This document shows positions 9,678 to 30,588 of a stretch of DNA of 55,346 bases, one piece after another. The notes under the pieces are model-generated. The model saw only the letters and a list, made by a program, of their open reading frames with translations. It was not told the origin of the DNA and searched no databases. The DNA is from a virus. The number at the start of each line of letters is the position of its first letter. The stretch's first letter is position 1. Location: IMG/VR virus record IMGVR_UViG_3300028654_000022, positions 1 through 55,346 of that record; one strand, given 5' to 3'. The translations under genes were made by a program, and so were the position numbers.

Positions 9678-9724
9678 TAGATTATTACGAATATATCAAA
9701 AGTCCCGAATGGAGAGATAATTAA
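9674..9724 (+). pseudogene. Possible remnant of an HNH endonuclease N-terminus
   Basis: A TTG at 9674 overlaps the helicase stop and opens a 16-codon frame reading IDYYEYIKSPEWRDN before TAA. The pattern YxEYxxSPEWR is how many HNH homing endonucleases begin, but nothing of the HNH core follows. It may be a decayed homing gene, or chance. Confidence 0.35.
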
Positions 9725-9757
9725 AAACGAAATTCAAACCAACATTAAGGAAATAAT

Positions 9758-9952
9758 ATGAAACAGTATTACATAGCTAGAGATAAAGATGGAAGAACTT
9801 TTTTATTTTATAGAGAACCTATGTGGGGAAAGCGATCTGGAATATGGAAAATAGATCGTGGCAAATGTAACCTATTAGATTTTACATTTGGACTTAAGAA
9901 AGGCGAGTGCCGCAAAGTCAAGATAGTCCTAGAACCAAAAGGAGGGAAGTGA
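9758..9952 (+). CDS. Hypothetical basic protein, 64 aa
   Basis: The protein is small and strand-rich with many Lys/Arg and aromatic residues (YYIARDKDGRTFLFY). Preceded by AAGGAAATAATATG. It is not recognised. It lies directly after the helicase and its remnant and is tightly linked to the next gene. Confidence 0.6.
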   Translation: MKQYYIARDKDGRTFLFYREPMWGKRSGIWKIDRGKCNLLDFTFGLKKGECRKVKIVLEPKGGK

Positions 9953-9953
9953 A

Positions 9954-10193
9954 TTGAGTGAAGTAAAAAGTGCTTTTAGACAAACCGACGAACCCGAAGA
10001 AATTGCAGGAGAATATTTTGAATCTGTTTATAAAAAATATCGTGGTAATCCCGGAGTAGAAGTCCAAGATTTTGAGAACAAAAATGCAAGGGTCACCTTA
10101 TTAAAAGTTGACAATAGGACAAAAGCATTTGTCATTGAGACGAGAACCGAATATAATAATATCGAATATGTTTATGGTTCGCTTGATCTTTAA
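9954..10193 (+). CDS. Hypothetical protein, 79 aa (TTG start)
   Basis: The frame opens at TTG 9954, eight bases after a strong AAAGGAGGG ribosome site, which decides the start. The protein is acidic with a beta-rich second half (VTLLKVDNRTKAFVIETRTEY). No family is recognised. Confidence 0.6.
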   Translation: MSEVKSAFRQTDEPEEIAGEYFESVYKKYRGNPGVEVQDFENKNARVTLLKVDNRTKAFVIETRTEYNNIEYVYGSLDL

Positions 10194-10225
10194 TTTTTAA
10201 CAAACCAAGTTAAAGGAGATATGAA

Positions 10226-10651
10226 ATGAATATAGACTTTTTACAAAACGAAATACTGCCAAAGCGAGCATTAGAAATAAAAGAAGGAAAAAATCTCTGT
10301 ACGGCCAAACCAATTTATGTTGTACTTGATTTGGTAGAAAATATTTGTTCGGGACACTCTGATTATTCTCTTGAACCAAACGAACAAGGGAAAAAACCAG
10401 AGTTCGGTTTTATTGATAACGCACTGGATAGTGAAGATAGAAAATTTTCCGAAACAGACGAAGGTATGACAGACCCAGAAGAAGTAACAATATTTTATAC
10501 CGACAGATTTGTTGCTTTCTTCTTAACAAGCGAAAGAGCACATAACTATTTAACATATCAAGGACACAATTTACACGATGCCTACGTTTATGTATTTGGT
10601 GCTGGCTACTCAAATTGGGAAATGGATAATTTATTTAGTGATGAAAATTAA
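10226..10651 (+). CDS. Hypothetical acidic protein, 141 aa
   Basis: Preceded by AAAGGAGATATGAA. The protein is acidic (many Glu/Asp, especially 45-85), with aromatic-rich C-terminal segments (AYVYVFGAGYSNWEMD). No catalytic motif or membrane segment is seen. It is the first of a run of small unknown genes typical of phage early regions, where inhibitors of host functions often lie. Confidence 0.6.
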   Translation: MNIDFLQNEILPKRALEIKEGKNLCTAKPIYVVLDLVENICSGHSDYSLEPNEQGKKPEFGFIDNALDSEDRKFSETDEGMTDPEEVTIFYTDRFVAFFLTSERAHNYLTYQGHNLHDAYVYVFGAGYSNWEMDNLFSDEN

Positions 10652-10663
10652 CAAGGAGGACTT

Positions 10664-11062
10664 ATGATACCCATACCCCAAGAACTCAAAGGACAAGAAG
10701 TAAAAAGTTTTATCGATTTAATGTTACCACTTTTTAATAAACGCAGAAAAGAGTGTGTCTATGATGTTGCGTTCCTTGACGGCTCAATAGAAATATTAGA
10801 TTTTTATTCACAACCGTTCTCACCATATATGATTACGGAATACTTTGAGGGTTTTGTGCAGACTCCCAATCATAATAAATTCGGGGATGATTTTTGTGAT
10901 ATAGAATTTAATTTTAATGAGGATACGTCTGAATATTTTATTTATATCTATGAAATAGAATTACATAGGCGAGTATTATTTTCTACATTCCAACCCTTAA
11001 CGCTTGATATGCTTATCTCAAATCTATTGCAAGCGGGAATTAAATTATCTTTTAAATCATAG
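10664..11062 (+). CDS. Hypothetical protein, 132 aa
   Basis: Strong ribosome site ACAAGGAGGACTT before ATG. The protein starts MIPIPQELKGQEVKSF and is rich in Phe and Tyr, with an acidic middle. I do not recognise it. It sits in the series of closely packed small genes. Confidence 0.6.
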   Translation: MIPIPQELKGQEVKSFIDLMLPLFNKRRKECVYDVAFLDGSIEILDFYSQPFSPYMITEYFEGFVQTPNHNKFGDDFCDIEFNFNEDTSEYFIYIYEIELHRRVLFSTFQPLTLDMLISNLLQAGIKLSFKS

Positions 11063-11072
11063 AGAGGTAAAC

Positions 11073-11369
11073 ATGGAAAAGGTTATTGAGTATTTAAAAT
11101 TAAGGGTTAATGGACACGCATCAAAACACGTACTTACGCCAGACGAAGCCCAAACCATTATCGATTACTACGAGCAACATCAATGGAAGGTGGTTGAGAA
11201 AGACGGGAACCCGAAAGAATATGATTTATACTTTATTTCGTTCAAATATCCATCGGGCGAGATAGGATTTAGTATCTCTCATTATTTGGCAGGCAACAAA
11301 TGGGGAGGTGATTCATGGGGGAGTTGTATTATCGCATGGCTTAAAATCCCCGAATTTAAGGAGAAGTAA
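11073..11369 (+). CDS. Hypothetical protein, DUF551-like candidate, 98 aa
   Basis: The start at 11073 is chosen because it follows AGAGAGGTAAAC and lies past the previous stop; a longer frame from 11004 would overlap the upstream gene. Residues about 35-60 (QWKVVEKDGNPKEYDLYFISF) resemble the W...P...YDLY layout of small DUF551-like phage proteins. The assignment is tentative. Confidence 0.5.
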   Translation: MEKVIEYLKLRVNGHASKHVLTPDEAQTIIDYYEQHQWKVVEKDGNPKEYDLYFISFKYPSGEIGFSISHYLAGNKWGGDSWGSCIIAWLKIPEFKEK

Positions 11370-11370
11370 A

Positions 11371-11733
11371 ATGAACAATCTACAGCAATTAAAATATGAC
11401 ATAGAATCCCGGCTAAACGATTTTGAGGCCGATGTTTTAACTAAAGAAGAAACCATAGAATCTTTTGCAGAATATTTGGCGGGATTGATTGAGAGAGTAA
11501 AAGAGCAATTGAAACCGCAATGGACAAAAGACAAACCGGATTTTCCCTGTGTGTTCATTGCTAAAGTAAAACATAAAAATTGGATAAAATATATCACCTT
11601 CACTATTAAGTACGAGGATAATTTAGAGGGTGAGGGTCAATACTTAGCATTATTCAATGATTATGATAACGAAGAACCTTTGGATGAACTTTTTGCAGAT
11701 GAATATTTTGTAATTGAGAAATTAGGAGAATGA
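11371..11733 (+). CDS. Hypothetical acidic protein, 120 aa
   Basis: The start at 11371 follows TTTAAGGAGAAGTAAA; an upstream ATG at 11308 would overlap the previous gene by 62 bases. The protein has a helical N-terminus (LKYDIESRLNDFEADVL) and an acidic C-terminus. The family is unknown. Confidence 0.6.
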   Translation: MNNLQQLKYDIESRLNDFEADVLTKEETIESFAEYLAGLIERVKEQLKPQWTKDKPDFPCVFIAKVKHKNWIKYITFTIKYEDNLEGEGQYLALFNDYDNEEPLDELFADEYFVIEKLGE

Positions 11734-11734
11734 C

Positions 11735-12145
11735 ATGACAGATCAAGAGAAATTAACTGAAATAATTACAGAAAATTCCACCGTAGGAAAGGTTTATTTA
11801 ACCATAGGGATTAAAACAGAATTACCGGTAATAGTTGAGCAGATAATGGAGTACTACGCTTCACGAAAGGGATATAGTTTAGAAGAAATAAAAGAAAAAA
11901 TTTATGAGGCGCTACCTTGTTCGTGTTTGAATGCTTACAAAGACAGGAATATGGTTGGTCCCCAATGTTCACAATGTAATTATGCAGAAGAAATATTGTG
12001 CCGATTTGAAATCAAAGACGCTTCACGAAAGGATGAGGGGGGTAAGTTGGTTGAATTATTGAAAACTACTAAAAGCCACATAAAACATACAAATAATTGG
12101 AATAGTATAAAAGAACAGTTAATTAAAGGATTTGAGAGGGGATAA
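11735..12145 (+). CDS. Hypothetical protein with Cys pairs, 136 aa
   Basis: Residues about 59-79 contain CSC and a later CSQC, plus another Cys near the C-terminal side, so a small zinc site is possible. The N-terminal half looks helical (KTELPVIVEQIMEYYASRKG). The ribosome site is TTAGGAGAATGAC. The stop overlaps the next ATG. No family is recognised. Confidence 0.55.
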   Translation: MTDQEKLTEIITENSTVGKVYLTIGIKTELPVIVEQIMEYYASRKGYSLEEIKEKIYEALPCSCLNAYKDRNMVGPQCSQCNYAEEILCRFEIKDASRKDEGGKLVELLKTTKSHIKHTNNWNSIKEQLIKGFERG

Positions 12146-12441
12146 TGATTAAAACGGGAAATGATATTCTTTATAACCAATTGAAAAACAAAGTTGGCTT
12201 TTATCGTAGTCCTAAATTCGTTAGATGGTTTCATGAAAAATATCCCGGATATGAAATGCACCATTGTTTCGGTAGCGTATCTCAAAGCTTAAAGACTTCT
12301 GATTATTGCTGTGTCCCTGTTCCACCTAATCATGCGGAATCAAAAGCTGAAAAAGACAAATCAAACTTTGCAATAGAACATTTGCCGGACTTAATAAATG
12401 TTTTACAAAATTATATCATTCACTTGGAAAGTAAGAAATGA
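12145..12441 (+). CDS. HNH-like nuclease-fold candidate, 98 aa
   Basis: The middle of the protein reads YEMHHCFGSVSQSLKTSDYCCVPVPPNHAESKAEKD. The His-His, then SLKTSDY, then VPVPPNHA pattern resembles compact phage HNH-type proteins (DUF968/recombination nuclease-like) in which the HH and the later H form the metal finger. The protein is short, so catalysis is uncertain. It overlaps the next nuclease gene by four bases. Confidence 0.5.
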   Translation: MIKTGNDILYNQLKNKVGFYRSPKFVRWFHEKYPGYEMHHCFGSVSQSLKTSDYCCVPVPPNHAESKAEKDKSNFAIEHLPDLINVLQNYIIHLESKK

Positions 12442-12758
12442 GCACAAAGGCAGATATTAATAAGGCATTCCGTTATTTAGAAAATTTCGATTATACCGTC
12501 CTTTCCTTTGGTGACAATAAGCCCGGACGTAGAGGACAAGCGGGCGGGGTAGATAATATAATCTTTAATAAAAAGTATCTGATATTTGTTGAAATTAAAT
12601 CAAAGGATACTGGCGATAAGCTAAGCGATAAGCAGAAAGATACTGCCTTGAAACTTAGTAGCATTGCTGCCTTAAACCGGACGGTATATTATTTCCAGAT
12701 AAAAACTGTCAGCGAAGCCATAGACCTAAGAAACAGAATTATTGCAAGGAAACTATAA
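12438..12758 (+). CDS. VRR-NUC-like PD-(D/E)XK nuclease
   Basis: The 106-residue protein has the compact restriction-fold signature GRRGQAGGVDNIIF (about 29-42), then FVEIKSKDTGDKLSDKQKD (about 49-67). Here Asp39, Glu51 and Lys53 fit the D...ExK metal site and the Q helix follows. VRR-NUC domains in phages act as structure-specific nucleases, for example on branched DNA. The overlap with the preceding HNH-like gene suggests a joint DNA-processing role. Confidence 0.75.
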   Translation: MSTKADINKAFRYLENFDYTVLSFGDNKPGRRGQAGGVDNIIFNKKYLIFVEIKSKDTGDKLSDKQKDTALKLSSIAALNRTVYYFQIKTVSEAIDLRNRIIARKL

Positions 12759-12761
12759 ACT

Positions 12762-12896
12762 ATGAAACATCACCTATACAATAAAACTTCCAAATCCGTC
12801 TACAATTCCCATCTAGCCAAAATGTGGAAATCCGGTGTAATTGGATATACTTCTTTTTACTTGGCGGTGATAGCGAAATTGAGGGTTGAGGTATAG
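12762..12896 (+). CDS. Small hypothetical ORF, 44 aa
   Basis: ATG at 12762, TAG at 12894-12896. The product is basic with a central aromatic stretch (GVIGYTSFYLAVIAKL) that could be amphipathic. It lies directly behind the VRR-NUC gene with three bases between; the ribosome site is weak. No family is recognised. Confidence 0.4.
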   Translation: MKHHLYNKTSKSVYNSHLAKMWKSGVIGYTSFYLAVIAKLRVEV

Positions 12897-12973
12897 GCTA
12901 AAATTGTTCACAGACTTCCATATAGCCCTATTTGGCTATTGCAAATTAAATAAAATATAGTTACATTTATTGC

Positions 12974-13267
12974 ATGAGTAGAGTAAAATTTGACGATTTA
13001 GATAAGGCTTCATTAAAATATAAAATCATTACTTCTTATGGGGACAAAGAGAAAAAACCACTATCCCGATTTGCAGATGAAATTAAAGTTACTAAGGCAG
13101 ACCTTTCTAACTATTTTAAGGGTAATACTAAAGTCGGTACAAAGATTAAAAAGAAAATCAAACTTGCCCTGATAGAGAGAGGGTTTATACCAAAGCCTAA
13201 AGTAAGCCAATATATGAAATGCCCGACATGTAATCATAAAACATTATTAATTAAGAAAGGAACTTAA
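12974..13267 (+). CDS. HTH regulator with C-terminal Cys motif
   Basis: The 97-residue protein has a Cro/Xre-like helix-turn-helix at about residues 29-62 (LSRFADEIKVTKADLSNYFKG, with the usual A...VT...LSNYF spacing). The C-terminus has CPTCNHKT, a partial zinc ribbon. It is preceded by a 77-bp gap with a short ATAGCC/GGCTAT hairpin, which could be an operator. It is the only clear small transcription factor in the left operon. Confidence 0.65.
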   Translation: MSRVKFDDLDKASLKYKIITSYGDKEKKPLSRFADEIKVTKADLSNYFKGNTKVGTKIKKKIKLALIERGFIPKPKVSQYMKCPTCNHKTLLIKKGT

Positions 13268-13268
13268 A

Positions 13269-14150
13269 ATGATTTGTATTTATCATAACCGTGACTTTGA
13301 CGGATTTTGTAGTGCCGCAATAGTAAAATTAGAACATCCCAATGCAACATTTATAGGTTGGGATTACGGGCAGCCATATCCTGAATTACCCGAAAACGAA
13401 TCTGTTATTATGGTTGATATTTCTTTTGAAATGAAAGAAATGTTAGTAGTCGCAAAACATTCTAAATGGAATCTGACTTGGATTGACCATCATATAAGTG
13501 CAATTAAAGATTATGAAAAATTTATTGGCGAAGGTGAAAGTTTTTGTAAAGCCATTCTTGATTCTTCAATATCAGCTTGCGAAGCCACTTGGAAGTATTT
13601 TTTCAAAGACAAGCCACTTCCGGCAATCGTTGAATTATTAGGTGTATATGATACGTGGCGTAAAGATGATAAAGCTATTTGGGAACAGGGCGCATTACCA
13701 TTGCAGACTGGACTTAGACAAATATGTAACGGATTAAATAACTTCCCAATGAAATATTTTGAACAACATTTTGATGAGTTGGAATGTGTGTACAAGGATT
13801 CAAATAGTTTGGATGAAATATTAAGGGACGGTAAAATCATTCTACAATATCAAAATATGCAGAATGAATCTCGCTGTAATAATTCAGCATTTGAAAGAGA
13901 ATTTGAAGGATTAAAAGCTATTTGCTTAGTCGGTGTTATTGGCTCGCAATCTTTTCAAGTTGCATGGGACACGGGGAAATATGATATAATGATTGCGGCA
14001 TCTTATACGAAAGACCGATGGACTGTTTCGCTATATACAGAGAAACCAGAAATTGATGTTTCCGTAATTTGCAAAAAATATGGCGGCGGTGGGCATAAAG
14101 GCGCAGCCGGATTTGTTACTCAAGATATTCATTCAATTTTACGGGTATAA
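13269..14150 (+). CDS. DHH-family phosphoesterase (oligoribonuclease-like)
   Basis: The 293-residue protein has the DHH-family motifs: HNRDFDGFCSA (6-16, Asp9 and Asp11), VDIS (49-52), the DHH triad WIDHH (71-75), and a C-terminal GGGGHKGAAGF (about 272-282) of the DHHA1 domain. Such enzymes degrade short oligonucleotides or cyclic dinucleotides with manganese. In a phage it may recycle nanoRNA or act on signalling nucleotides; the exact substrate cannot be read from sequence. Confidence 0.85.
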   Translation: MICIYHNRDFDGFCSAAIVKLEHPNATFIGWDYGQPYPELPENESVIMVDISFEMKEMLVVAKHSKWNLTWIDHHISAIKDYEKFIGEGESFCKAILDSSISACEATWKYFFKDKPLPAIVELLGVYDTWRKDDKAIWEQGALPLQTGLRQICNGLNNFPMKYFEQHFDELECVYKDSNSLDEILRDGKIILQYQNMQNESRCNNSAFEREFEGLKAICLVGVIGSQSFQVAWDTGKYDIMIAASYTKDRWTVSLYTEKPEIDVSVICKKYGGGGHKGAAGFVTQDIHSILRV

Positions 14151-24197: not shown

Positions 24198-24226
24198 ATA
24201 GTAGCAAAGTGTTTTATGTTTGTCAA
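24198..24226 (-). promoter_or_regulatory. Promoter candidate for ATP-grasp/lysis block
   Basis: On the minus strand, TTGACA (24221-24226) and TACTAT (24198-24203) are separated by exactly 17 bases. The -35 box overlaps the stop of the 2121-residue gene. The 14-base block TTAGATTGACAAAC around this -35 is repeated exactly near 50780. Confidence 0.55.
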
Positions 24227-27200
24227 TCTAACCTACCGGCTTTTATTCTTTGAGAACCGAGTCTGTTATTTAAAGTTCTTATCGGCTTTTTTTTGTCTGA
24301 TATTTCTTCTCTCGCTCTGGCTCCGGTTCCACCGCTAACTACTGATAAAAAGACACCGGTTAAAATTTGCTCTATTTGCGGTGTACTCATACCTTTGGCT
24401 TTCATCTGGTCGTATACGTCTTTTATACCTTCGGCTGCCGGAATAGGTGTTTGCTGTGTTAAAAGGTATTCACCCCATGTATATTTATGTGCGCCTTTTT
24501 TAGGCTTATCGTTGAAAGGTGGTAAAACATTACCCATATAGTCGGTATGTGAAAACCAGTCTACCGCATTCCCCGCGAAAGGTGAAGCTTTCCCTCTGAT
24601 ATAATTTCCACCAAATTTAACCGCTGTTTCAAATCTTGATTTACCATATAATTTTTTTTGATCTTCAACAATTATCTCCGCCAAACGAGCTACGAATGTA
24701 ATTGTTGAAAGCATACCACCCGATACATCAATAACTTTATTTCCGGCTTTGAACCTCAACCAGTCACTCTTTGTTGGGTCTGTAAAGTTTATTTTCTGGT
24801 TAGAACCCGCTAATGTCAAAATTGCCTGATTAGCAGCAAGTAACGCGGCCATTGTTGCGAGTCTTTCGCCGGAACTTTTAGCCGTAAGTTTTGCAGCTAC
24901 TTTTTCAGAGGGTTTAGCGTTTTTCCATGTTGTAAATGTTTTTATAGCCTTTGCCGGTTCTATAATTAATCTTTGCCATCTTGACCATTCAAGTCTTGGG
25001 GCGAACATAGCTACATTAAGAATTTTCGGCGTAACAACTTTGCTTGTACCTGTAGAGGAGTTTACTTGCTCTGCAATTCTCTGGGCTGTTTCAGGGTCGG
25101 CTTTTTCTATTTCTGATAAGTGACTCCAAATTGATTTAGCTGTTTCAAGCCTATGAACTTTTAATATCTGGAATCCTTTATTACCTATCTCTCCGAACTT
25201 TCCGAATAGTTTACCAATTTCCATATAATCATCATATATACGAGTAGGATCAACTGCAAGGCCGGCACGTTTCCACATTATATAATCAGGGTCAGCTTGT
25301 AAATCTTCAATTGCCTTTTGGTAATTAGCTACATCACCGTAAGCGAATTTAAATTGTCTAATAAAGTTAGGAAAGTAGATATTCCATGCTGAGGGTTTAA
25401 ATATATCCATCCCCGCGTGTGTAATCATTCCTACCGTACCATGACCAAATACTTTTAAGCCAAAGAAAATATTAGGCACTGATCTTATAAATCTTATTGT
25501 TTTAGGTGTATCCGCTGACCGTATCCATGCTTTAGCGTTTAATATGGCTCTTTGCCTTGCATATCTCGCTCTGTACATTTCGTCTGTAATTTCACGAAGT
25601 TGTTTTGGCTGTGCGATTGCATTTCTTACCTGATCGTGAGATAGTCCGGTTTCTTTTGAAAGTCCGTCCACCATATCATTAAAATCAGTCACGCCCTTAT
25701 CGATATATCCTTCTTTTGCCCGGCCCCAGACTGCCTTTGCTTCGTTAGGAGTGAATTTATTTCCTTTTTTATCTGCAAAGTTAAAATCTTCAATCTTTCT
25801 TGCTAATTGGTCATTATGCCAATCGGTAAACTGTTTTTCCGCTTCTTTTTGTCTGCCTTCGCCAAGTGCTTTGTACCAGTCGGTTTCTTTTAATGCCTTA
25901 ATACCGTCCTGAATAGCCTCTGCTACAACTCCGCCTGCTTCAATTGACTTTGCTACTGTTTCAACTCCTAAATCCCACGCTAACGTTGCGGGTGTAGCTG
26001 AATAGAATGCGCCAGGTCTATGAATCTTAGCGGTACGGATTTTATTAGCCAGTGCTTTTGAAGATGCTTTTATGCTTTTATCTCCGGCTCTTTTATTGGC
26101 TAAATTCTTTTCTAAATCTTCATTTTTACTGATAAGTTCCTGAATACGGTCATTTAATTTTTGTTCTTTATCCGTAAGTTCTTTAACAGTATTACTTAAT
26201 TTCTTAGCCCTCTTTGACTGTCCGGGTGTAAATTCCTTGCCCGTCTGCGTTTCATAAGCCCTTCGTATTCCGCTGAAAGTTCCTGTATCAATATCAACTC
26301 CGCCTTGCTGAGCCTTTCCTATATTACTCCACATAGTCTGCATAGGTTTAACTTCATCCAAAAAGGCTTTTTCTTTCTTAGCAGCTTCTTTATATTGAGG
26401 ACTATCAACACCGTATTTGTCCTCTGCTAAATTAGTTGTATGAGCCAATTCATCAGCGTGTGCATTTGCAATAGCCATTGTATCGGCAGAAATTTTCTTG
26501 TCTTTTTTGAAGTCGGAAATAATATCATCTGCACTAATACCTTGTTTTAGGTAACTATTACCTATATTTCTCATATCTTCTGCACTATAACCCTGCCCTA
26601 TTTCAGAGGCTTTCATACCCGTAATATCGGCTCTTTGTTCTCTTATTCTTTGTGCTATACCGGATTCAGCGCCTTTAGTTTCCGCTTCTTTTGGCACTTT
26701 TGTGGAAGGTTCTATTTGTTTTTCGTCTAATTTAGCATCTTCCACTTTTGCAGGGGCGGCAGCTTTTTCGTCCTTAAATAAATCCGAAAAATCACTTTTT
26801 GTCTGTTTCCAAATATCCTGAAGATGAGGTTTAATATCCTCACCAAAGTCCTCAATCATCTTCTCTGACCATTTGGCGAAACTTCTTAGTCCTGATTCTA
26901 CGTGATAGGCTCCTATAGTAGCGTAATCTTTTAAAAGAGTTGGGCCAATGCCTAATGGAGATATTCCTTGACCTTTGGTGATTATATTTTGCTGTGCTTT
27001 TTTATATGATTCATCAGAGATAATTCTATTGGGTTTCTCTACCTTAGATTTGTTTAAGTCTTCTAAATAATCGGCAAAAGCTTCTTTACCATAATCTTGT
27101 TCGGTAAATTCATAACCTTTATTTTTTAAGTAATCACGTAAAACTTGTCCCCATCCACCAACGCTAACTTGTTTCCCTTTGGTAACTTCTTTTCTCAAAG

Positions 27201-30200
27201 CATTGCGAAGTGGAGAATTATTTTTAACCCAATCATTGAATTCAATACCACCAATTCTTCTAAAATATTCAGGTGTGACAGATTCGTTACTACCCCTAAG
27301 CATAGTTTTGGATACTTCGTCTTTAACAAATGGTTTCTCAATCGGTTTCAAATCCTCTTTAACGGGGGCTTCATTTGTAATATCTCTGTCAAATCCAATT
27401 CTCCAATTTTTTAAATCAGTATCGCTTAAAGCATGGAAAATGCGCTTATCTCCTTCTTTTGTGACAACCCCATTCTCCCTATATTCAACAATATTATTTT
27501 CGTTAGGATTAATAAGCTTATCAACTTGCTCAAAGTATTTTTGAGCTTTTTTCTCTCCAAGTTTATCTTTTAGGTTTTTATAATCTCTGTTTATAACATC
27601 AGAGGTTGTCATTTCTTTAACGGCGGGAACTTCGGGCTGTACGGTTTCCTTTGGAGTTTCAACTTTTTTCCTATTAGCATAATCATATTCAGCTTTAGTA
27701 AGTTCGTAACCGGAATATTGACCATTATCTAATTTCTTTCTGAACATATATACATCTTTTTGGGGAGGTGTGGGATTATCGCCCGCCAATTGATCTCTAA
27801 GCTCATAAAATCTTGCAACTTGAGGAATATTCCGATTTCCCAAAGGCAAGTTACTTCTTCTTAATCGCTCATATTCATCTTGCATCTTTTTGAATTTAGC
27901 CATATCGCTATGTTGTTCTATTGTAGGTTCATATCCTTTATCCGTTTGTTTATCAATAAATTCTTTCCTTGTAACCACACCAATATCTTTACCGTAATCA
28001 AATTCCTTGCTAAGTATTTTTTCATCACGAGCATCATTAAATTTTTGTTGACGTTCCTGTTTACTCATTGTTTGAGTAATAGGCTTTTCAGGTTCTTTAT
28101 AATCAGAAAATTTCTTCAATTGCTCAATAGTACCCTTTTGTGTATTGGGTAATTTCTCGCTCGTATATTCCTCGAAGAATTTTCTACTTGTTTTATTATC
28201 GGTATGAAGATTATCAGAAAGAGTTTTATAATCCTTATCATCAATAGCAGATTTTAGCTTATTTAGATATTTAGCGTTCTGCTCAATACCTTTAGGAATT
28301 GCTTTAGAAATTTCATCTTCTGAACGAGGTTGTAACCCCGATTCTTTCCTTGAATCCGTATCAAGTTTTATCTGCATATCAGTCATTCTTTTTGCATAGT
28401 CATTAATCAAGTTAGGTTTCTTAACCTCATCAATAACCTTTTTGTTTTCAGGTGAAATATTCCCTTCCGCTTCTTTTCTCCACTCCCTAACCTGATTCAT
28501 GTTTTTAGGTTCGTTCTTTAAACCTAATGCTTTTAATACTTCCATATCCTTCTTACCACGTTCAAACATACCCATAGCAGCGGATTTGTTGTTGTCGGTA
28601 GGTTCTAAAAATTTATAATTTTTATCATCTATCTTTTCAGCTAATCCTTTTTTAACAAAACTATCCCAAAGGCTAACTGCATCGGGGGTTAATTCATGTA
28701 CTGTCTCGCCTGATAATAATTTTCTTGGCTGCGTAGACCTTAAAGGCTTACCTGTTTCTTTTAGACTTTCTTCATTCATTTGTTTATAGAAACCAGTAGC
28801 GATACCTTTTCTTTTTAATTCATCGGGTAATAAAGCATTTCTGACTATAAAACCATCTTTATCTTTTGATACTGTAAACATATCGGCACGTCCACGAACA
28901 TTTTTAGAAACATCGTAAGTAGAAAAATTACCTTCATCTGTTTTAAAATCTTTAACTTTTGTAATCTTAGGTGCTTCTTTTGGCACTTCCTGACTGGCCG
29001 GAGTATGGCTAATTTCTTCTTTAGACTTGTAAAGCGGGTCGTTATCATACCATTGCCTGTAATTAGTGAATAACCGACCTTTTTTATCTTCAAGATAGTT
29101 AATACCATCTATTTCAGTAATTTTAGTCCCTTCATTTTTAGCGACACGTTTTAGCATATCGTTAAATTCTTTTGAGTCTTTTCTTCTAACCTCTTCACTC
29201 AAAGTTTTGCCATATTCGGGTTCGGGTACGGTTTTTAACTGTTTCAATGTTTGAATATTCTCATACGGTTGTTTCTCAGTCTGTAAGTTTTTCTCACTAA
29301 CTGCTTGAACATTTTCCGTTTTGGAAACAGTTGATTCTTTATCCGTTAGTTTCTCTACTCCCGTGCCTTCCGGTGGAATATTGGAAATTTCAGGCTTATT
29401 TAATGCTTCTGCAATACGCTGTTTCCGTTGAGTAAGCTCTTGCTGTTTTATAATATCAGCAACTTTCTTTCGTGGAATCTTTAACTCATCTGATATTTCG
29501 GAGGGCTTCTTACCCTTGCTTAAAAGCTCACTTACTTTGCGCTCATCATCCTGGACAAGTTTTTGTGTTTGCTCATTTTCTGCGCCTTTTCGTGCTTTGA
29601 CATCTTGTGCTCCGGTAGCCCCTTCTCCTTCGTTGCTGCGAAGTCGTGAAGTTGCTTGTGAGACATTTTGAGCACCCCCTTGTTTTTCTTGCTTACCTGT
29701 CCCGGATTGTGCTCCGCCATTGCCATTAACTTTCTCTGTACTTCTGATTGTGCTGGCATTTTCTGTTCCTTTCTTAAATTTATCTTGTATGTTTTTTGCT
29801 TGCTGTAATTGTTCCTGAATAGCCTGTAATTGCGGGTCAATATTAGGCACAGGAACTTTATTCTCTACAAATTCTTTAGCTCCGCCGTGCATTGCGCCCA
29901 TAAGAGCTAATCCGCCACCTTCGATAAGTAACTGATTGACCTTCTTTTCAAGGTCTGAATCACCTGTAGGTAAGTTTATGCCTACCTTTTTAAGTTGGCT
30001 GGCTAATCCTTTATAGGCTTCGTTATAGCCTTGCGAAGCCATCTTTACTGCATCAAAGGGCAGATTGAAGGCTCTATTTATCCCTTCGGTGGTTTGCTGA
30101 CCTATAGAACCCGTCTTATTAAGTAATTCCTCTCCTGCATTGATAGGTATGGTTACTGGTGACATTGCACCATGCAGAATAGAGGAAAGTAGGTCAACTG

Positions 30201-30588
30201 TACCTTGTCCGGGTTTATCTCCTTGTATTTCCTGTAAACCTTGTCTTGCCTCATTTACGGGGCTTAAAATAGATTGCAAAAGACTATCTGCTTGTCTTAC
30301 TCTTGGAGCTTCTTGTACCTGATTATCTTTCTGTACTAAACCACTAGACTGCGTATTAGGATTTACAAAGTTCTTATTTCTCGAAGCCTGTACTATATCA
30401 AATATTTTTGCTTGTGGTTTAACTTGCGCTTTACCATAGGTGCTTATAGGATGTTCTATATTAGGATTCTGCTGAGACGTTTCCTGCCCTTGTGAATCGT
30501 CCTGACCGTAATAGTCTACCTTACCCTCACCATCGGGTTTGATAGTTAAATAAGAAGGTTTTGCAGTATTTTTTGTAGTGTCACTCAT
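24223..30588 (-). CDS. Large polyvalent / internal virion protein, 2121 aa
   Basis: The giant protein has a glycine/glutamine-rich N-terminal half of low complexity, an HTH-like segment (about 352-385, KKPSEISDELKIPRKKVADI), a GNAT-like patch (about 570-610, LLPDELKRKGIATGFYKQ), several charged linkers and a helical C-terminal part of roughly 500 residues (for example FGHGTVGMITHAGMDIF, RFIRSVPNIFFGLKVFG). Such proteins are injected with phage DNA in podoviruses (internal or ejection proteins) and carry several enzyme-like domains. Its position after the neck, spike and smaller internal proteins supports this. A nested gene overlaps codons about 277-352. Confidence 0.75.
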   Translation of the reverse strand: MSDTTKNTAKPSYLTIKPDGEGKVDYYGQDDSQGQETSQQNPNIEHPISTYGKAQVKPQAKIFDIVQASRNKNFVNPNTQSSGLVQKDNQVQEAPRVRQADSLLQSILSPVNEARQGLQEIQGDKPGQGTVDLLSSILHGAMSPVTIPINAGEELLNKTGSIGQQTTEGINRAFNLPFDAVKMASQGYNEAYKGLASQLKKVGINLPTGDSDLEKKVNQLLIEGGGLALMGAMHGGAKEFVENKVPVPNIDPQLQAIQEQLQQAKNIQDKFKKGTENASTIRSTEKVNGNGGAQSGTGKQEKQGGAQNVSQATSRLRSNEGEGATGAQDVKARKGAENEQTQKLVQDDERKVSELLSKGKKPSEISDELKIPRKKVADIIKQQELTQRKQRIAEALNKPEISNIPPEGTGVEKLTDKESTVSKTENVQAVSEKNLQTEKQPYENIQTLKQLKTVPEPEYGKTLSEEVRRKDSKEFNDMLKRVAKNEGTKITEIDGINYLEDKKGRLFTNYRQWYDNDPLYKSKEEISHTPASQEVPKEAPKITKVKDFKTDEGNFSTYDVSKNVRGRADMFTVSKDKDGFIVRNALLPDELKRKGIATGFYKQMNEESLKETGKPLRSTQPRKLLSGETVHELTPDAVSLWDSFVKKGLAEKIDDKNYKFLEPTDNNKSAAMGMFERGKKDMEVLKALGLKNEPKNMNQVREWRKEAEGNISPENKKVIDEVKKPNLINDYAKRMTDMQIKLDTDSRKESGLQPRSEDEISKAIPKGIEQNAKYLNKLKSAIDDKDYKTLSDNLHTDNKTSRKFFEEYTSEKLPNTQKGTIEQLKKFSDYKEPEKPITQTMSKQERQQKFNDARDEKILSKEFDYGKDIGVVTRKEFIDKQTDKGYEPTIEQHSDMAKFKKMQDEYERLRRSNLPLGNRNIPQVARFYELRDQLAGDNPTPPQKDVYMFRKKLDNGQYSGYELTKAEYDYANRKKVETPKETVQPEVPAVKEMTTSDVINRDYKNLKDKLGEKKAQKYFEQVDKLINPNENNIVEYRENGVVTKEGDKRIFHALSDTDLKNWRIGFDRDITNEAPVKEDLKPIEKPFVKDEVSKTMLRGSNESVTPEYFRRIGGIEFNDWVKNNSPLRNALRKEVTKGKQVSVGGWGQVLRDYLKNKGYEFTEQDYGKEAFADYLEDLNKSKVEKPNRIISDESYKKAQQNIITKGQGISPLGIGPTLLKDYATIGAYHVESGLRSFAKWSEKMIEDFGEDIKPHLQDIWKQTKSDFSDLFKDEKAAAPAKVEDAKLDEKQIEPSTKVPKEAETKGAESGIAQRIREQRADITGMKASEIGQGYSAEDMRNIGNSYLKQGISADDIISDFKKDKKISADTMAIANAHADELAHTTNLAEDKYGVDSPQYKEAAKKEKAFLDEVKPMQTMWSNIGKAQQGGVDIDTGTFSGIRRAYETQTGKEFTPGQSKRAKKLSNTVKELTDKEQKLNDRIQELISKNEDLEKNLANKRAGDKSIKASSKALANKIRTAKIHRPGAFYSATPATLAWDLGVETVAKSIEAGGVVAEAIQDGIKALKETDWYKALGEGRQKEAEKQFTDWHNDQLARKIEDFNFADKKGNKFTPNEAKAVWGRAKEGYIDKGVTDFNDMVDGLSKETGLSHDQVRNAIAQPKQLREITDEMYRARYARQRAILNAKAWIRSADTPKTIRFIRSVPNIFFGLKVFGHGTVGMITHAGMDIFKPSAWNIYFPNFIRQFKFAYGDVANYQKAIEDLQADPDYIMWKRAGLAVDPTRIYDDYMEIGKLFGKFGEIGNKGFQILKVHRLETAKSIWSHLSEIEKADPETAQRIAEQVNSSTGTSKVVTPKILNVAMFAPRLEWSRWQRLIIEPAKAIKTFTTWKNAKPSEKVAAKLTAKSSGERLATMAALLAANQAILTLAGSNQKINFTDPTKSDWLRFKAGNKVIDVSGGMLSTITFVARLAEIIVEDQKKLYGKSRFETAVKFGGNYIRGKASPFAGNAVDWFSHTDYMGNVLPPFNDKPKKGAHKYTWGEYLLTQQTPIPAAEGIKDVYDQMKAKGMSTPQIEQILTGVFLSVVSGGTGARAREEISDKKKPIRTLNNRLGSQRIKAGRLD
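29532..29759 (-). CDS. Nested overlapping gene, MPAxSxxQ/DUF3008-like protein
   Basis: In another frame of the same strand inside the 2121-residue gene, ATG 29759 opens a 75-residue ORF. Its pattern MPAQSEVQRKLMAMAE, then KMSHKQLHDFAATKEKGLPE, matches the small phage/bacterial DUF3008-like family (MPAxSxxQxxLMxMA at the start, DFAxTKxKGLPE later). A good ribosome site GAAAGGAACAGAAA sits before the ATG, inside the host gene. In the overlapped part the large protein is low-complexity (many Gly, Gln, Glu, Asn), as expected of an overprinted linker. The function is unknown. Confidence 0.75.
   Translation of the reverse strand: MPAQSEVQRKLMAMAEHNPGQVSKKNKGVLKMSHKQLHDFAATKEKGLPEHKMSKHEKAQKMSKHKNLSRMMSAK

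Follow-up and report, generated by a model that had tools for sequence, protein, structure and literature searches.

A ready-made small phage gene lies wholly inside a giant gene of the virus analysed here, on the same strand and one base ahead of the giant reading frame. Throughout the overlap in this window (the whole 55,346-nucleotide stretch of IMG/VR record IMGVR_UViG_3300028654_000022) both frames are open, and the nested frame encodes a 75-residue member of a widespread family of small phage proteins, the DUF3008 type. Such nesting recurs, with small genes of four protein families found in at least three lineages of giant genes, always in the +1 frame. The most probable account is that a pre-existing DUF3008-type gene was captured in a linker of the giant late gene, where it is transparent to the host frame by virtue of silent third positions and is read from its own internal start, although its expression and function are inferred.

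The nested ORF begins 829 nt from the start of the giant gene (829 mod 3 = 1) and is thus an internal same-strand +1 overlapping gene, lying fully inside an open frame of 2121 codons on the shared minus strand with a one-base shift (Table 1). The anti-Shine–Dalgarno (SD) pairing energy at its ATG, −5.6, is typical of the genes of this phage (median −5.4) and is equalled at 7 of the 121 other internal ATGs of the giant gene. The nested stretch also gives the top +1 codon-usage score in the entire giant gene, while host-frame codon usage is kept there (0.186 versus a giant-gene mean of 0.215, s.d. 0.039). Coding signals are therefore present in both frames, resting on codon usage in the window phage and on frame-specific conservation only in sister cases from other phages.

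Table 1 Positions of the nested genes, their host genes and associated regions (window positions unless a locus or genome is named)
Feature	Position	Strand	Basis or remarks
Giant host gene (2121 aa), uninterrupted across the nested gene	24223..30588	minus	ORF; host-like codon usage in the overlap
Nested DUF3008-type gene, 75 aa	29532..29759	minus	ATG 29759-29757, stop 29534-29532; +1 frame of the giant gene
Shine–Dalgarno-like AAAGGA	29767..29772	minus	7 nt 5' of the nested ATG; sequence and pairing energy
Overlapped host stretch, residues ~277-352, linker-like, without recognised homologues	29531..29760	minus	
N-terminal region, residues ~63-250, common to L068, L070 and L071	29839..30402	minus	blastp; nested gene comes after
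Residues 1180-1324, with weak similarity to phage genes that are annotated as DarB-like antirestriction or structural	26617..27051	minus	E ~2e-6, 28-40% identity
C-terminal region, residues 1219-2100, 54% identical to L071	24289..26934	minus	
Giant gene of G005 (L060-L062)	9701-13930	minus	Unannotated nested 50-aa KG(S/T)PL ORF at residue ~230, +1, start AAAGGCACTCAAAATG
phrog_2423 small gene	L070:16585-16713		Nested +1 in 1628-codon giant gene; E 3.6e-20
KG(S/T)PL genes	L123:7992-8135, L132:7992-8135, L143:7992-8135		Nested +1; ATG 9 nt upstream of match
MPFxSKAQ genes	L102:10001-10132; L098 and L099:10001-10144		Nested +1 in giant genes

The assignment of the nested protein to DUF3008 (PF11450) does not depend on Pfam alone, where the match covers only residues 31-52 and is marginal (24.1 bits, cut-off 24.0; E 4.1e-5). 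Relatives are encoded at 50 viral loci with 43-73% identity, almost all as separate small genes and a few as in-frame parts of larger proteins, and a profile built solely from stand-alone relatives matches the window ORF at E 4.6e-30, ruling out a chance resemblance. Family membership was also met in a full-length alignment to 24 relatives, from the start through the motif (43-69% identity), in which M1, P2, S5, Q8, H38, A41 and T43 are invariant, giving an MPxxSxxQ start and an H-D-F-A-x-T motif. With the DUF3008 family the nested protein shares the MPAxSxxQ start, central helices, the DFAxTKxKGLP motif and a basic C-terminal tail. AlphaFold predicts a helical protein with good confidence (pLDDT 85.7). 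A protein named as DUF3008 is among the viral Foldseek matches to this model (E 1.4e-3, prob 1.00), which shows a common predicted fold; the matches extend to cyanophage proteins, of which some reach 500-1000 aa, and no significant match was found in the PDB. The window copy differs from the other members found in being nested, these being separate genes or in-frame domains, and no second phage with a nested DUF3008 gene was found among the relatives examined. INPHARED gave no DUF3008 match, whether queried with the small protein of the window (P0002) or with a family consensus, and an open-access literature search returned no paper on DUF3008. At loci L047-L050, DUF3008 forms an in-frame domain of 570-800-aa phage proteins that share an 'NxFFYDLNKRLAxLADKQDA' start.

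Where it overlaps the nested gene, the giant protein has the composition of a linker, 75% of the overlapped residues being G, P, Q, N, S, T, E, D or A. The giant protein (P0003) has no Pfam domain above cut-off. As regards polyvalent proteins, in which several named conflict or enzymatic domains share one polypeptide, it shows the weak DarB-like similarity at residues 1180-1324, and another host, L099, has an ART-PolyVal domain. It is likely to be a late phage protein, probably packaged and injected, with the virion role inferred from gene position and weak similarity. An exact-pattern search of viral contigs for the giant protein found no match, and its relatives were reached through the terminase of the window and a 778-aa neighbour. 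A whole-record search of the terminase relatives for P0003 and P0002 was empty, though G005 among them proved to be syntenic.

An earlier note on this DNA, made from the sequence alone, had described a 75-residue ORF with an ATG and a good ribosome site, in another frame but on the strand of the large gene, had likened its product to DUF3008 and had called the overlapped host stretch a linker. All three claims held, with the ORF placed at the right coordinates, whereas its label of 'virion gene' for the 2121-residue gene remains inferred rather than shown. The note had also named two outcomes that would refute it, and neither occurred: the small protein has homologues in many phages, and in nested pairs of the sister families conservation is stronger in the small frame than in the large one.

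Across the phages examined we counted 12 distinct nested instances, every one on the strand of its host gene and in +1. Relatives of the window's giant gene carry other small genes in their N-terminal half, two of the KG(S/T)PL type, one MPFxSKAQ and one phrog_2423. The syntenic giant gene of G005 has a similar KKGT(E/Q)N stretch, followed by a +1 ORF that belongs to another family (MKTKTMRQVRFLMSKGSPL...), and the nested protein of L068 is 60% identical to that of G005. L071, the relative with the similar C terminus, nests an MPFxSKAQ protein whose separate relatives are up to 79% identical, and the phrog_2423 gene of L070 sits further along its giant gene, at residue ~640. Altogether, KGxPL genes are nested in +1 in G005, L068, L123, L132 and L143, the last three within host frames of more than 2500-3900 codons, and MPFxSKAQ genes in L071, L098/L099, L102, Elemovirus and MW202828, with hosts of 2232 codons in L099 and more than 4000 in L102. 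In Elemovirus, a group of cultured Flavobacterium phages, the MPF-family gene is unannotated within a 'structural protein' gene of ~3694 codons; 68 Flavobacterium records match, and in each of the five checked the match falls within that gene, in +1. A short way downstream of the nested gene, the host gene encodes an ART-PolyVal domain in L099 and DUF3293 in Elemovirus.

Each relative phage has one nested small gene, and no examined locus has two, although these loci cover genomes only in part. Of the six SD-using cases, five have a good ribosome site ahead of the nested start and one, G005, an ordinary one (40 of its 89 internal ATGs are as good), and in phages whose own genes lack SD sites the nested starts lack them too. 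Nested and separate copies were sorted by profile search, a blast comparison being dominated by truncated-contig artefacts. We found no recognisable nested small gene in distant relatives of the giant C terminus (L082-L089) or in the first 1127 codons of L072, and no match in INPHARED to the nested KGxPL or L071 proteins; a genome-contig scan for the MPF family gave three loci only. DUF3008 and MPFxSKAQ may form one superfamily (MPxxSxxQ ... LP), with an hhalign E value of 6e-5 but a probability of only 64%.

Because no second nested DUF3008 gene was found, tests of selection rest on sister cases of the other families. In these, protein-level constraint is stronger on the small frame. In nested pairs, identities of the small protein and of the overlapped host protein were 79/48, 60/36, 70/55, 77/52, 68/43 and 57/36%, so that the small protein ranges over 57-79% and the overlapped host protein over 36-55% (lowest 33%), with host flanks at 16-45%. 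Within the overlap, differences peak at the third nested codon position and are rarest at the second, which corresponds to host position 3; constraint on the host alone would give the opposite pattern, which is also the one in the flanks. Three of four differences between Elemovirus variants are silent in the nested gene while altering the host protein (P to S, T to A and E to K); the fourth has the opposite effect, altering the small protein and being silent in the host. From the identities, the codon positions and these variants, we conclude that the small protein is mainly what is preserved in the overlap. As a separate observation, Elemovirus A and E (L146 and L149) differ at eight sites in ~6.5 kb, and the 126-nt nested ORF accounts for four of these, as independent exchange of the cassette would produce.

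The openness of the host frame can be put down to silent third bases. Of 29 separate DUF3008 copies only one is open in the would-be host frame, where the copies contain ~3.7 stops on average; the window host frame is thus open far beyond chance. At risky sites, where a T would be silent in the small gene but would create a host-frame stop, nested genes have T at 0 of 130 positions (0 of 18 in the window gene), compared with 196 of 611 in stand-alone copies. This absence follows by definition from the open host frame and is therefore not independent proof of selection. It does show that silent third-base choices suffice to render the small gene transparent to the host frame. In the +1 arrangement every host-frame stop needs a nested codon ending in T, and a change from NNT to NNC is always silent, so that a gene with no T-ending codon before AA, AG or GA would leave no host-frame stop. 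In the other shift some stops, such as that formed by ATG followed by A, are not removable by silent change. That silent changes alone can make any small gene transparent in +1 is a possible cause of all cases being +1; earlier surveys likewise found that internal overlaps favour this frame (PMC8227390).

Four other explanations were weighed against capture. De novo overprinting, in which the small ORF was born inside an old giant gene, is thought to be the origin of most viral overlaps, of which the internal +1 type is the commonest (PMC8227390). It would leave the nested frame without outside homologues, whereas here the small frame has wide stand-alone homologues (up to 73% identity) and the overlapped host stretch has none that we could find, which contradicts this origin and leaves it almost no room. 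A frameshift product, in which ribosomes slip from the giant to the small frame and make a truncated giant protein with a DUF3008 tail, is feasible in that the small frame is open for 35 codons upstream of its ATG. However, the homologues share an MPA start, and the upstream extensions vary among cases both in length (3-63 codons) and in sequence, so that this explanation, too, can be set aside with near certainty.

A silent remnant, a small gene inserted by accident whose expression has since been lost, would fit the absence of transcript, ribosome-profiling or mass-spectrometry data and the finding of only a single nested DUF3008. Against it, all 75 codons are intact, a ribosome site is present, the nested frame is under constraint in sister cases, and Elemovirus variants alter the host protein by changes silent in the nested gene; we regard it as highly improbable. 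A selfish cassette, a mobile passenger of the ShiLan kind spreading without serving the phage, would fit the patchy distribution, the different cassettes carried by related giant genes and the clustering of Elemovirus A versus E differences in the nested ORF (4 of 8). It is nonetheless unlikely, given the absence of a nuclease or recombinase and of any target repeats that we could see, the conservation of the nested protein over deep host divergence, and the occurrence of the same families as ordinary separate genes and in-frame domains.

The nearest precedent for capture is the insertion of HNH endonuclease genes out of frame in phage methylase genes described for ShiLan, where no splicing was found and the host reading was predicted to form a harmless loop (Arsenault et al. 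2025, PMC11855218). As in ShiLan, the inserted gene of the window is out of frame and the host gene reads through it without stops. The systems differ in that the HNH cargo of ShiLan explains its own spread and has no visible ribosome site, whereas the cargo of the window type is small, basic, helical and non-nuclease, comes from four families and sits in giant late genes, and most SD-using phages have a ribosome site for it; the window insert itself is DUF3008 and gave no nuclease match. Internal +1 phage genes are known from E within D of phiX174 (PMC8227390). Rz1 within Rz of lambda is another. These resemble the window gene in being small, wholly inside another gene on the same strand and expected to initiate internally. 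In that class, however, the nested frame is usually young and without homologues, whereas in the window the nested frame is widespread and it is the overlapped stretch of the large frame that seems the more recent. The hosts recall polyvalent proteins (Iyer et al. 2017, PMC5512222) in being very long late-gene proteins, with ART-PolyVal in L099 and DUF3293 in Elemovirus, but the text of that paper contains neither 'overlapping' nor 'alternative frame', and the open-access literature we searched does not describe ready-made small genes nested in giant genes.

Overlaps are usually explained as a new gene arising in an old one; here the hidden gene is old and recognisable and the visible gene's stretch is the passenger. 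Given the recurrence, phages seem to have lodged ready-made small genes in giant ones repeatedly, and the rules of capture within a gene become testable, including why the frame is +1 and what a host frame tolerates. It also means that annotation overlooks known genes even in cultured phages, as in the Elemovirus records.

Under the preferred reading of capture, a small gene acquired ready-made would lodge in an interdomain linker of the giant late gene, and the giant frame would pass through it as an unstructured linker tolerating any stop-free sequence. The earlier note had proposed that a pre-existing small gene, mobile or inserted, was captured in a frame that leaves the host open; capture is supported by the stand-alone homologues and the silent third bases, whereas mobility is not shown, the cassette being a single ORF without a nuclease. 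The comparison with relatives' giant genes that it called for revealed different nested small genes in place of DUF3008, which is absent there. Its remark that the recognisable frame is the hidden one also held, but the coding of two proteins by one stretch, which it called rare, is not isolated. The search turned up no close relative of the giant gene in which the slot is empty, and insertion is therefore inferred from the distribution of homologues and not from an empty-site comparison.

The nested protein would be made by internal initiation on the late mRNA of the giant protein, as inferred, without expression data, from the ribosome site and ATG in an SD-using phage. Its product would be a basic helical peptide, probably accessory to virion assembly or DNA delivery, which is the least certain step and is inferred from context. 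Nested products are basic (pI 10 or more), and phrog_2423 copies are located in the head module. Separate DUF3008 copies lie next to genes of various kinds, helicases and methylases as well as portal, terminase and head closure, so that a 'virion module' holds well for phrog_2423 only. The findings point to a class of small basic proteins in many phages that may work beside injected giant proteins. A bolder reading, which we hold only tentatively and would not favour on present evidence, is that the genes of giant injected proteins provide permanent docking sites for small basic proteins that can replace one another, one family per phage and always in +1, with nested and giant products acting together in the virion or in genome delivery and one message setting their place and amount. 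In Leptolyngbya phage Lbo-JY16 (L076:3001-4380) an annotated structural protein has a phrog_2423 segment fused in frame to its start; the match covers three stretches.
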